This document shows, piece by piece, positions 708-62,788 of a stretch of 64,000 bases of DNA. A program made the translations under genes and the position numbers. Source of the DNA: Hirudinaria manillensis. Lineage: Eukaryota; Annelida; Clitellata; Hirudinida; Hirudinidae. Location of the stretch: the NCBI GenBank assembly GCA_034509925.1, contig CM067527.1:12070001-12134000 (forward strand), read 5' to 3'. The notes beneath the pieces are model-generated. The model ran no database searches. It was not told the origin of the DNA and saw only the letters and a program-made list of their open reading frames with translations. The number at the start of each line of letters is the position of its first letter. Position 1 is the stretch's first letter.

Positions 708-10632
<9,925 letters not shown>

Positions 10633-11924: not shown

Positions 11925-12766
11925 ATGTCTGAGAGCCAGGGCCTACTGTCGAAGTTGGCGAGACTAGACCACTTCCTTGCGAAACTTCTAAGCGTGTCCA
12001 GCTCGAGCGAGAGCATCCTTGGATACCTCAGACCCTACTTCAAAAGTTTCGAGATGCTAGGATATAGTGGAATATGGATATTTGTCATACCAGTGGTGTT
12101 TTTTATGGCTCATGATCCTGTTGTGAAAGAAAAGTTACTTAACCTGCAGATTGGTTGGTTTTTTTATCCATTGGCTTCTGGATAATGAGCTTAGTGCTGG
12201 GTTCTTTTGATCTTGCTCATCAATGTTTTGTTAAACTGACTATTAAAACTATTTTAAATTACGTCAAAATCTTTCAATGTTAACAATACTTTTAGAGTAA
12301 CTCGAGAATTGCTAATTGAATTGAATATATCACAATTAAGAATACATTTCTGAGGAATTAACAACATTTCCAATGTCGTCCTGCAATTAATGATACAGCA
12401 GTCATCATGGACATAATAGTGATCGGACTTCTCAAGGTCTTGTTCCGCAGGCCCAGACCATCAGAAAACATGGACGACCACCGGTACATCTTATCGGAGA
12501 AGTATAGCATGCCGAGTGGACACTCGTCCTTCGCTGTGCTCCTCTACATATTCGTACTACTCAACTTTCAATTGTCTACATTGTGGATGGATGTTCTTAA
12601 AGTATGGGCCATTTTCGTCATGGCGTCCCGTCTGGCCATGGCGCGACATTATTTGTCTGATGTTGTTGTCGGAGGGATGATAGGTTTCATAGAAGCTCAG
12701 GTTGTCTCGCCTACTATGGTCTGGGTCAATCTGGACGACTTGAAGAAGGCATTATTCTTGGGGTAA
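11925..12766 (+). CDS. PLPP6: PAP2-superfamily lipid phosphatase, PLPP6-like, copy A
   Basis: PLPP6-type enzymes remove phosphate from isoprenoid diphosphates such as presqualene or farnesyl diphosphate in ER and nuclear membranes. Two exons, 11925-12153 and 12399-12766, join in phase 1 to 198 residues. The three PAP2 signature motifs are present: K89 with RRPRP (residues 89-97), PSGH at 115-118, and SRLAMARHYLSD at 153-164 with catalytic His160 and Asp164. Hydrophobic segments lie near residues 46-62, 78-88, 120-132 and 145-152. The protein is shorter than vertebrate PLPP6 (about 295 residues) because it lacks most of the N-terminal cytosolic extension. A possible AATAAA lies at 12948. PLPP7 is the main alternative, but that protein lacks an intact catalytic set. 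Confidence 0.88.
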
Positions 12767-13694: not shown

Positions 13695-14358
13695 ATGTCA
13701 GAATCAGATTCTTTATTATCATATCTGGTAAAAATCGAACTGATGCTTTCAAAGCTGCTAAGCATCTCTAGCACAAATGACAGCATGATGGGGTGCCTCC
13801 GACCTCACCTAAAAACCTCTGAGATAATTGGCAACGGTGCATTGTGGCTGCTTGTCGTGCCCTTCATATTTTTCCTAACCTCTGAACACAACACCAAAGA
13901 GAAACTGCTCAACCTAGAGCTTGGTAAGGCCTTCTATATATTTTCCTGACAGATTAAGATAATATAATCTCAAGTTATTCCATACTCATTTACTATTAGC
14001 TTTGCTACTGGATTTGGCAACTGTTGGGATCTTGAAAGCCATAATCAGGCGCCCAAGGCCTCCGGACAATTTGGATGATCAAGGAAACCTCTTGTCAGAC
14101 AAGTACAGCATGCCTAGCGGTCACACTTCTCGTGCAGTTCTCGTTTATTACTTCATTCCCACGAATTTCCATGTCTCCATGATGTGGCAGGACGTCCTTA
14201 GAATTTGGGTGATTTTAGTCATCGTGTCGAGACTTGCCATGGCACGTCACTATCCCTCGGACATTATCGTGGGCGGCGTGCTGGGCTACCTGGAAGCACA
14301 AATCATCGATCCTACGGCTTTCTGGTTCAATTTGGAGAATTTCCTTTTAGCAAAATGA
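13695..14358 (+). CDS. PLPP6: PAP2-superfamily lipid phosphatase, PLPP6-like, copy B
   Basis: The gene has two exons, 13695-13923 and 14000-14358, encoding 195 residues. Exon 1 is exactly 229 nt, as in copy A, and the intron has the same phase at the same place (after LLNL.LG). This marks a tandem duplication rather than chance similarity. The active-site motifs are intact: K..IRRPRPPDN, KYSMPSGHTSRA and SRLAMARHYPSD. Shared strings include EKLLNL, MPSGH, SRLAMARHY and MGYLEAQ-like ends, while the first third and the region after PSGH have diverged. The intron is only 76 bp against 245 bp in copy A. Confidence 0.88.
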
Positions 14359-60316: not shown

Positions 60317-60357
60317 ACACCTTTAACAAAGACAGCTTCTAGCATGTATTATATAAA
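60317..60357 (+). promoter_or_regulatory. PSE-like and TATA elements of tRNA-Sec copy 1
   Basis: ACACCTTTAACAAAGACAGC begins 63 bp before the tRNA and matches the ACACCTCTGAYAGGAAACAG block of the other two copies. A TATATAAAT box lies about 28 bp before the tRNA start. This layout is the gene-external type 3 RNA polymerase III promoter known for animal tRNA-Sec. Confidence 0.75.
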
Positions 60358-60379
60358 TAACGCTCGCACCAGCCCTTCT

Positions 60380-60466
60380 GCCCGAACGAGCCTCGGTGGT
60401 CCGGGGTGCAGGCTTCAAACCTGTAGCCGATTTGCGTCGGAGTGGTTCAATTCCACCCTTCGGGCG
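60380..60466 (+). tRNA. tRNA-Sec (anticodon TCA), copy 1
   Basis: An 87-nt gene matching metazoan selenocysteine tRNA. It has the acceptor arm GCCCGAA pairing with TTCGGGC plus a G discriminator, and the anticodon loop CTTCAAA with TCA. It also has a long variable arm (GCCGATTTGCGTCGG) and a T arm with GGTTCAATTCC. tRNA-Sec inserts selenocysteine at recoded UGA codons, so this organism makes selenoproteins. The copy lies inside the putative hAT-like element, and its 3' flank lacks a good T-run terminator nearby. Confidence 0.93.
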
Positions 60467-61349
60467 TTGGGTGTCCCTTTGGGGGTACTTCGGGGGTAGG
60501 GGTGAAGTACCTGGTGTTTGTACTCGCGGCAGGGGTGCCGACCTTTGGTACTTGTGCTCGTGCCTTGGGTACTGTGATCGTACGTGTACTTCAGGTACCT
60601 CTGCTTGCACTCGGTACTTGAGTACTTGTACTCGTGTCTCCGGTACTTGTTCCCGAGTCGTTGGGAGGCAGGTCTGTGGTTTGATAGGGAGGCAGAGGGC
60701 TCGCCCTCCACGTGGTGCTTCCAAGCAAAGCGGCCGGAAGAGCTTCGGCGCCACGCCAACTTTGATGGTGGCTTCCGTTTTAGGCTTATTTTATCTTGTT
60801 AAAATTAAGTGATCAAACGTAAAGTTACTTGACGATTGTTTTTATTACATTGGAACAATTCTGACTGCAAAGCTGCGAGCAGAAAAGTACTGAAAAATAG
60901 ATGGTACTTGACAAAGTACTTGAAAATCCAAGTACTTGTGCTTGGACTTGAATCTTGAGTACTTGTGTACTTTGTCCTCCAGTATTTGTTTCCATCTCTA
61001 CCCATAGGAGTGCTGAAGCAGATGGCTAGCCGTGGGTCGTTACGAAGGAGAGAGAAGGATTTATGGAAATTACGATGATTTTAAATTGATATTGAATGAC
61101 TGTACTAAAATTAATTTATTTTTTAATTTGTTTATTTTCAAGAACCCTTAAAGAAATGATTTGAAATTACTAACAACGTAACTAACCCTTCGCATGTCTT
61201 TCAAAGCTTCCATTCGAATGAAGTAAAAATTATTACAATGTTTTGTTAAACGTTATTATTGGTGAGAATTAAACACAAATCTATCTTAAAGTTGATGATT
61301 CAATGAATAATATCATCAATAGGATTTAATTTGTGTAAACATTATTGAA

Positions 61350-61389
61350 ACACCTCTGATAGGAAACAGCGAAACTGGAGATTATAAAA
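61350..61389 (+). promoter_or_regulatory. PSE-like and TATA elements of tRNA-Sec copy 2
   Basis: ACACCTCTGATAGGAAACAGC starts at position -63 and TATAAAA at -30 relative to the tRNA start at 61413. Position and sequence are the same as upstream of copy 3. Confidence 0.82.
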
Positions 61390-61412
61390 GGACACAGTGA
61401 CGGGCATTCAAT

Positions 61413-61499
61413 GCCCGAACGAGCCTCGGTGGTCCGGGGTGCAGGCTTCAAACCTGTAGCCGATTTGCGTCGGAGTGGTTCAATTCCACCCTTCGGGCG
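61413..61499 (+). tRNA. tRNA-Sec (anticodon TCA), copy 2
   Basis: The sequence is identical over all 87 nt to copies 1 and 3, so every stem of the long-variable-arm tRNA-Sec fold is conserved. A T-run (CCCTTTTTC) about 20 bp downstream is a plausible RNA polymerase III terminator. It has the best complete promoter-gene-terminator layout of the three. Confidence 0.95.
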
Positions 61500-61517
61500 G
61501 TGATTCTGTCGCGGGAC

Positions 61518-61524
61518 CCTTTTT
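61518..61524 (+). terminator. T-run terminator of tRNA-Sec copy 2
   Basis: A TTTTT run after GGGACCC, within 25 bp of the 3' end of tRNA-Sec copy 2, as expected for RNA polymerase III termination. Confidence 0.6.
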
Positions 61525-62046
61525 CTGTTATACTAACATAACAATGCTTGAATAAATTACTTTACTATAAAGGATCAGGTGATAAATTGATATACCTTTC
61601 CCTATTGCTGCACTCCAAAAATTTTGATGATCCAATTGGAATCCAAGAATTCCAGATCCTTGTTGTACTGCCTTGCGTTTTGACATGGTTTTGTTTGTCT
61701 CCAAATAGTTTTATGATAATTATTTTTATCGGCTAATATAATGCATAAAATTTCTCTAAGCGCCTGAAATTACTGGCAATATGGAAAATTATTTGCTAAA
61801 AACGAATGTTTCTTTTTACAAACACAATTAAAAAAAGATAACTGAAGAAAAATTTGCATTTCGTGATCATTCGTGAAGAAACTGATTCAAAGCCAACGTC
61901 TGATACCGATTTGTAAAAATGCATCGAACACCTATTCAATACCACAATAATTCACTATAAATTAGCGTTGACATATCTGATTATTAATAATTGTTTAAAT
62001 TCCTTCAGAAATATAATTTAACCAGCTGTTTCCAATTTAAGTAGAA
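61525..62046. other. Spacer between tRNA-Sec copies 2 and 3
   Basis: AT-rich sequence with no homology that I can see to the other tRNA-Sec flanks. The duplicated flank shared by copies 2 and 3 begins only about 67 bp upstream of each tRNA. No genes or repeats were recognised. Confidence 0.45.
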
Positions 62047-62086
62047 ACACCTCTGACAGGAAACAGAAAATCTGGAGATTATAAAA
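62047..62086 (+). promoter_or_regulatory. PSE-like and TATA elements of tRNA-Sec copy 3
   Basis: ACACCTCTGACAGGAAACAG at -63 and TATAAAA at -30 before the tRNA at 62110. Only a handful of substitutions separate this ~65-bp flank from that of copy 2. Confidence 0.82.
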
Positions 62087-62109
62087 GGACACAGTGACGG
62101 GCATTCAAT

Positions 62110-62196
62110 GCCCGAACGAGCCTCGGTGGTCCGGGGTGCAGGCTTCAAACCTGTAGCCGATTTGCGTCGGAGTGGTTCAATTCCACCCTTCGGGCG
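62110..62196 (+). tRNA. tRNA-Sec (anticodon TCA), copy 3
   Basis: Third identical 87-nt selenocysteine tRNA gene. The 3' flank reads GTGGTATGGG and contains only a TTTT at about 62232, a weaker terminator than that of copy 2. Divergence resumes immediately after the discriminator base, so the duplication breakpoints lie at the end of the gene. Confidence 0.94.
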
Positions 62197-62788
62197 GTGG
62201 TATGGGATTGAAGAGGGTTCCGTACCTAGGGATTTTGCCCGAATTTGCTCAACCTTCTCGGCGTTGGACGTCTCGACATGTGAGTCCCTGGTTACTTAGT
62301 TTTTATGATTTAGGTTAAGCAAGTTTCGGTTGTTTGGGGCGATTAATATTTTTCTATGTATCAGTTTGGACAATCATGCTTTAATGAACGATTTAATAAC
62401 TTCAAATTTTGGGGATTTTAATCATATTGGCGTATAAAATGTAGTGAAGTTTATAAACTGAAAATAATTATATAAATGTTTTCTAGAGTCTTGAGATTGC
62501 AGCAGTTTATAAATTGTTACTTTTTGATTGATTTGGTGGTTTCCAACTTGACCCAGGAATTAAGTAAATAATATAAATTAATATTAAGATATGGGTCTTA
62601 ATTATATAATTTATTGGAATAACCTAAATATAAAATATTTTATTAAAATAACTAAAATCTAAAGTACGTCTTTAGGAATTGAGATTACGCTCACATTTAG
62701 TTCGTTTTTAGTATTGACGCACTCGACGTAAACATTGTAGGTGCCTACAAAAATACTAAAAATTAGGTCTTAAAACTAAACATTGAAG
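62197..62788. other. Spacer between tRNA-Sec copy 3 and CHURC1
   Basis: AT-rich spacer containing the Churchill promoter and 5' UTR. No conserved element or repeat was recognised. Confidence 0.45.

Follow-up and report, generated by a model that had tools for sequence, protein, structure and literature searches.

Several intact genes for the selenocysteine tRNA (tRNA-Sec) in one animal genome are already on record (PMC5330540), and the leech cluster described here is a further instance. In that survey, Table 3 gives four copies each for Branchiostoma floridae and Parasteatoda tepidariorum and two each for Lingula anatina and Daphnia pulex, and zebrafish is credited with two identical genes; these animals are like the leech in that intact tRNA-Sec genes with G73 are present in their genomes in more than one copy (PMC5330540). 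Table 3 counts the top gene together with copies bearing compensating mutations, whereas the leech has three identical genes within 1.8 kb. Trypanosomatids also carry several such genes per genome, with two in T. brucei, lying about 4 kb apart, and eight in T. cruzi (PMC2695483). Literature searches brought up no paper recognizable from its listing as dealing with how many tRNA-Sec genes annelids or leeches carry.

Genes for U6, MRP and tRNA-Sec use external Pol III promoters, described as having a TATA box near −30, a PSE upstream of it and T-run terminators, with the tRNA-Sec promoter being a hybrid that also employs internal boxes (PMC8362101). The leech promoters share the TATA box and the upstream PSE of this layout. 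Their upstream element differs in being ACACCTCT at −63, as derived from the leech genome itself.

The three genes occupy positions 60380–60466 (copy 1), 61413–61499 (copy 2) and 62110–62196 (copy 3) of the window, by which we mean the whole stretch of 64,000 nucleotides that was analysed. All lie on the plus strand, as do the promoter elements and T runs given below, and the cluster lies within 1.8 kb. At each site ARAGORN calls an 87-nucleotide tRNA-Sec with anticodon TCA, and each copy matches the full length of Rfam model RF01852 (model positions 1–91; 76.0 bits, E-value of 8.1e-14), for which the cut-off is 47 bits. The three gene bodies agree with one another at every base (87 of 87), and an earlier note on this DNA, which had placed three identical 87-nucleotide tRNA-Sec genes at 60380, 61413 and 62110, was exact in its coordinates.

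In the Rfam alignment the genes show the eukaryotic tRNA-Sec architecture, comprising a long acceptor stem, a 4-bp T stem, a 6-bp D stem and a long variable arm, and copy 1, when folded freely, takes up a structure like the aligned one. The acceptor stem contains one C–C mismatch, at a place where human tRNA-Sec presumably has U–U. The internal B box of all copies is ordinary by its consensus, and the promoter outside the genes is of the animal type. In this the leech genes differ from those of trypanosomatids, in which the internal boxes are reported as altered (PMC2695483). The 87th base, discriminator position 73, is G in all three copies, and G73 is described as essential for tRNA-Sec function (PMC5330540).

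The search for further copies covered a genome of 148.4 Mb in 23 contigs, the window belonging to contig C2. With RF01852, 52 matches were listed and the best candidates scored; three reached 76 bits, all of them in this cluster. A fourth match above the cut-off (49.2 bits) was rejected as a tRNA-Sec, being called tRNA-Ser(GCT) by ARAGORN. The remaining 48 listed matches fall below the cut-off, and the six loci examined from this group are all tRNA-Ser genes located in tRNA-Ser arrays. Among the matches listed, this covariance-model search of the genome returned no tRNA-Sec copy or pseudogene besides the three at 76.0 bits, and a DNA search of the genome with copy 1 and its promoter as the query found the same three places and no others.

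Preceding each gene at fixed distances are two promoter elements. The motif ACACCT begins exactly 63 bp 5′ of every copy (at 60317, 61350 and 62047), as had been claimed, and comparison of the promoters delimits PSE-like elements at 60317–60327 (ACACCTTTAAC, copy 1), 61350–61360 (ACACCTCTGAT, copy 2) and 62047–62057 (ACACCTCTGAC, copy 3). A TATA box begins exactly 30 bp 5′ of each copy, with TATATAA at 60350–60356 in copy 1 and TATAAAA at 61383–61389 in copy 2 and 62080–62086 in copy 3; the earlier note had put this box 28–30 bp upstream, and its presence at each gene holds, with the range narrowing to a single value. When eight distinct promoters are compared, ACACCTTT occurs in copy 1 alone, versus ACACCTCT in the others. 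The sequence ACAG, formerly regarded as the end of the upstream block, is offset by one base in copy 1 relative to copies 2 and 3 and had to be discarded from the shared element, as the promoters of U6, MRP and U6atac lack it at the corresponding position. A STAF-like distal motif, sought as one simple motif from −500 to −60, matched once and briefly, at −280 of copy 1; copies 2 and 3, one U6 gene and one MRP gene gave no match. Spanning the gene start of copies 2 and 3 (61401–61417 and 62098–62114) is an interrupted palindrome, CGGGCAT-TCA-ATGCCCG, which does not occur in copy 1.

A scan of the genome for ACACCTYTNNY followed by a gap of 20–24 bases and TATAWAA gave 13 matches, of which 10 have a gap of exactly 22 bases. 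Nine of these 10 belong to tRNA-Sec (three), U6 (three), RNase MRP (two) and U6atac (one) genes, and in all nine the gene starts 63 bp past ACACCT; the tenth lies in low-complexity sequence and has no Rfam match, and the remaining three, in which the gap is 21 bases, have none either. The Rfam comparison covered those seven of the 13 matches that were not already recognized as tRNA-Sec or U6, yielding 85.2 and 69.4 bits for RNase MRP and 89.6 bits for U6atac. Each of the three U6 genes detected carries ACACCTCT at −63, followed by TATATAA at −30. As the scan pattern was itself derived from tRNA-Sec and U6, the independent finds are those of MRP and U6atac only, and the reversed pattern, used as a control, is commoner than the forward one (25 genome matches versus 13), so that support comes from the nature of the matched genes and not from their number. 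U6atac genes also use an external Pol III promoter. Judged from the sequence, the ACACCT/TATA arrangement serves these genes in common as the genome's external Pol III promoter, and the earlier assignment of a PSE plus TATA promoter to the tRNA-Sec genes is confirmed because the same promoter stands before U6, MRP and U6atac genes. At contig C2:11185617–11185655, a promoter-like ACACCTCTCGC followed after a 21-base gap by TATAAAA, with no Rfam match, is possibly an unknown small-RNA gene and possibly a chance occurrence.

Outside the gene bodies the copies are unequally related. The promoter stretches of copies 2 and 3 are identical at 59 of 63 positions (four differences), and that of copy 1 matches either of the others at 22 of 63. 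The 100-base flanks outside promoter and gene, compared without gaps, agree at 28–40 of 100 positions in all pairs, about as in unrelated DNA, and the identity of copy 1 to the other copies is confined nearly exactly to the gene itself. The stretch separating copies 1 and 2 contains a dispersed repeat (60765–61000, plus strand) with nine partial matches elsewhere, 75–89% identical and spread over six contigs, which we take to be hAT-like.

The 3′ ends differ as well. Copy 2 is followed by a T5 run at 61520–61524 (+21), its likely Pol III terminator, and copy 3 by a T4 run at 62233–62236 (+37), a possible terminator that could be chance, since T4 is present in 1553 of 6396 window 40-mers. After copy 1 there is no T4 terminator for 311 nucleotides, the first T4 run lying at 60778–60781 (+312) and a TTT at 60478–60480. 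Thirteen distinct tRNA-Ser genes (sharing four anticodons and so not independent) have T4 or a longer run at +11 to +19. As a striking feature in itself, the lack of T4 after copy 1 is weakened by its frequency elsewhere: 20.75% of 2000 composition shuffles of these 311 bases are free of T4, as are 186 of 1274 window 311-mers, so the missing run is a caution on copy 1 and not proof of a dead gene. Owing to its divergent promoter stretch, its variant PSE and the lack of a nearby T4 run, copy 1 is of uncertain activity and may be transcribed weakly or not at all. The earlier proposal that all copies have been kept functional is not supported, given the 311 T4-free nucleotides and the ACACCTTT element found in this copy only.

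We consider it quite probable that local duplication in an annelid-like genome has produced this small group of tRNA-Sec genes, which are of the ordinary eukaryotic kind. Two RNase MRP genes lie 8 kb apart (contig C1, about 5.55 Mb) and are 93% identical over 371 bp of promoter and gene, and within the 3-kb loci compared they are unrelated outside this unit. Copies 2 and 3 of the tRNA-Sec gene are likewise alike over promoter and gene only, which makes ordinary local duplication the best explanation. Two U6 genes lie 187 bp apart, with N preceding them, the tRNA-Ser genes are arranged in arrays, and a tRNA array at contig C1:5585951–5622900 contains at least 63 matches with a period of about 585 bp, all 63 scored matches falling there. 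Such large arrays are hard to assemble, and together with the identical gene bodies they might suggest a single gene appearing three times through an assembly artefact. This is, in our estimation, extremely improbable: the flanks differ in all pairs (28–40 of 100 identical), which means that no single assembled piece has been repeated, copies 2 and 3 disagree at four of their 63 promoter positions, and the window contains no N. The sign of such an artefact given in the tRNA-Sec survey, identity that includes the 100-bp flanks (PMC5330540), is absent here.

A different division of the cluster, into two working genes (copies 2 and 3) and a promoter-weakened relic (copy 1) that is identical only through conversion from its neighbours, would account for copy 1 being alone among eight distinct promoters in having ACACCTTT, for its 311 nucleotides without T4 and for a promoter with 22 of 63 positions in common with the others. 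We regard it as unlikely, though with some claim to attention, as the PSE and TATA box of copy 1 still begin at exactly −63 and −30, the identity is bounded almost exactly by the gene ends, as selection would leave it, and about 21% of shuffles of the 311 bases likewise lack T4. Moreover, tRNase Z is still able to cleave read-through transcripts. The same differences might be read as two promoter classes serving one tRNA-Sec, a conserved unit in copies 2 and 3 versus a divergent PSE context and a read-through 3′ end in copy 1, which we hold to be improbable.

The gene content of the genome bears on whether the copies answer a need for dosage. By this content the animal uses Sec. SepSecS is represented by eight exon matches in one stretch of contig C4. 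A C-terminal exon with similarity to thioredoxin reductases (best E-value of 1.7e-11) reads GC-UGA-G-stop, and about 640 bases 3′ of it is a SECIS match of 30.2 bits, below the Rfam gathering score of 35. Five GPx exon matches group as three genes, two with UGA at the ACK-U-G active site and one with Cys. Selenoproteins were sought exon by exon through SECIS, Rdx, SelP_N and GPx, and the counts refer to these families only: the SECIS search of the genome gave one sub-threshold match among the best 134 of 4069 candidates scored, one Rdx exon was found, and SelP_N had no match in the genome, in a search in which no control matched either. A selenoprotein expansion was not found by these searches.

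Selection for a higher tRNA-Sec dosage, imposed by unusually many or Sec-rich selenoproteins, would agree with three intact genes bearing matching promoters and with the evident use of Sec. It nevertheless appears a poor candidate, with little probability in our view, as one Rdx exon and one SECIS-like match were recovered and SelP_N went unmatched in the search in which no control matched either. The annelid Capitella teleta, with a total of 34 selenoproteins, has three Sec-GPx genes to the leech's two; the range for marine invertebrates is 22–40 (PMC3473315). Multi-copy genomes moreover show no correlation of tRNA-Sec number with selenoprotein number in the survey (PMC5330540). On the families searched, the unusual selenoprotein demand suggested in the earlier note is unsupported, given this GPx comparison, the absent correlation and the duplication of several other Pol III genes in the genome.

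Returning to local duplication, copies 2 and 3 would have arisen one from the other, or have been homogenized, recently enough for the promoter-plus-gene unit to be still alike. Copy 1 would represent an earlier split, in which the promoter spacer and flanks drifted while the gene body was kept identical by purifying selection or conversion. The recent local amplification or conversion formerly proposed thus fits copies 2 and 3, with 59 of 63 promoter positions shared, but "recent" does not fit copy 1, with 22 of 63. As to transcription, processing and the factors bound, we infer that Pol III would read each gene from the PSE (−63, bound by SNAPc) and the TATA box (−30) with the internal B box, and that the transcript would be trimmed to the 87-nucleotide tRNA, which on receiving serine would be turned into Sec-tRNA and decode UGA in selenoprotein mRNAs. 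The persistence of three copies is most likely due to drift and the duplication habit of the genome, perhaps with a mild dosage benefit.

Upstream of the tRNA cluster, at about 30165–58691 of the window, are many reading frames resembling extracellular domains, which we take to be usherin-like; the two frames scanned matched fibronectin type III and laminin EGF. Adjoining exons of a PAP2-family phosphatase at 12362–12766 and 13963–14358 perhaps form a tandem gene pair, and a C2-domain exon at 3862–4212 is presumably ferlin-like. The mitochondrial contig C23 (15,581 bases), which is partly N, begins with COX1 and is readable under the invertebrate mitochondrial code. Its readable protein genes share a strand and run cox1, cox2, cox3, nad6, cob, with nad1, nad3 and nad2 following at a distance, presumably the annelid order. 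Five of them, cox2, cox3, cob, nad1 and nad3, have confirming Pfam matches; the frame assigned to nad2 matches the NADH dehydrogenase family in general, and the frame without a Pfam match is one we take to be nad6. A COX1 match at contig C9:3026446–3027786 scores as the mitochondrial contig does, and is either a very recent nuclear copy or an assembly join. Of the 19 mitochondrial tRNAs that ARAGORN predicts on C23, two are on the other strand and some must be false. If the usual order is Y-G and A-S2, the order predicted on C23, G-Y and S2-A, agrees with the swaps in the leech Whitmania pigra. Among the clitellates sequenced by the time of the paper describing these swaps, trnA-trnS2 and trnY-trnG in W. 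pigra are the sole exceptions to a perfectly conserved gene order, and trnA/trnS2 are swapped in nereidid worms too (PMC4866719). Together, these mitochondrial features indicate, with moderate confidence, an annelid that is probably a leech.

With full promoters and long contigs, the leech cluster is a well-resolved addition to the list of animals in which tRNA-Sec is present in several intact copies. One and the same scan establishes, for U6, U6atac, MRP and tRNA-Sec together, what the genome's external Pol III promoter consists of: ACACCTCT at −63 and TATA at −30. Owing to the identical gene bodies and unique flanks of the three copies, precursor reads could reveal which of them is in use. 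Were the two promoter classes to be true, a single cluster would allow the supply of Sec-tRNA to be tuned to the tissue or stage.
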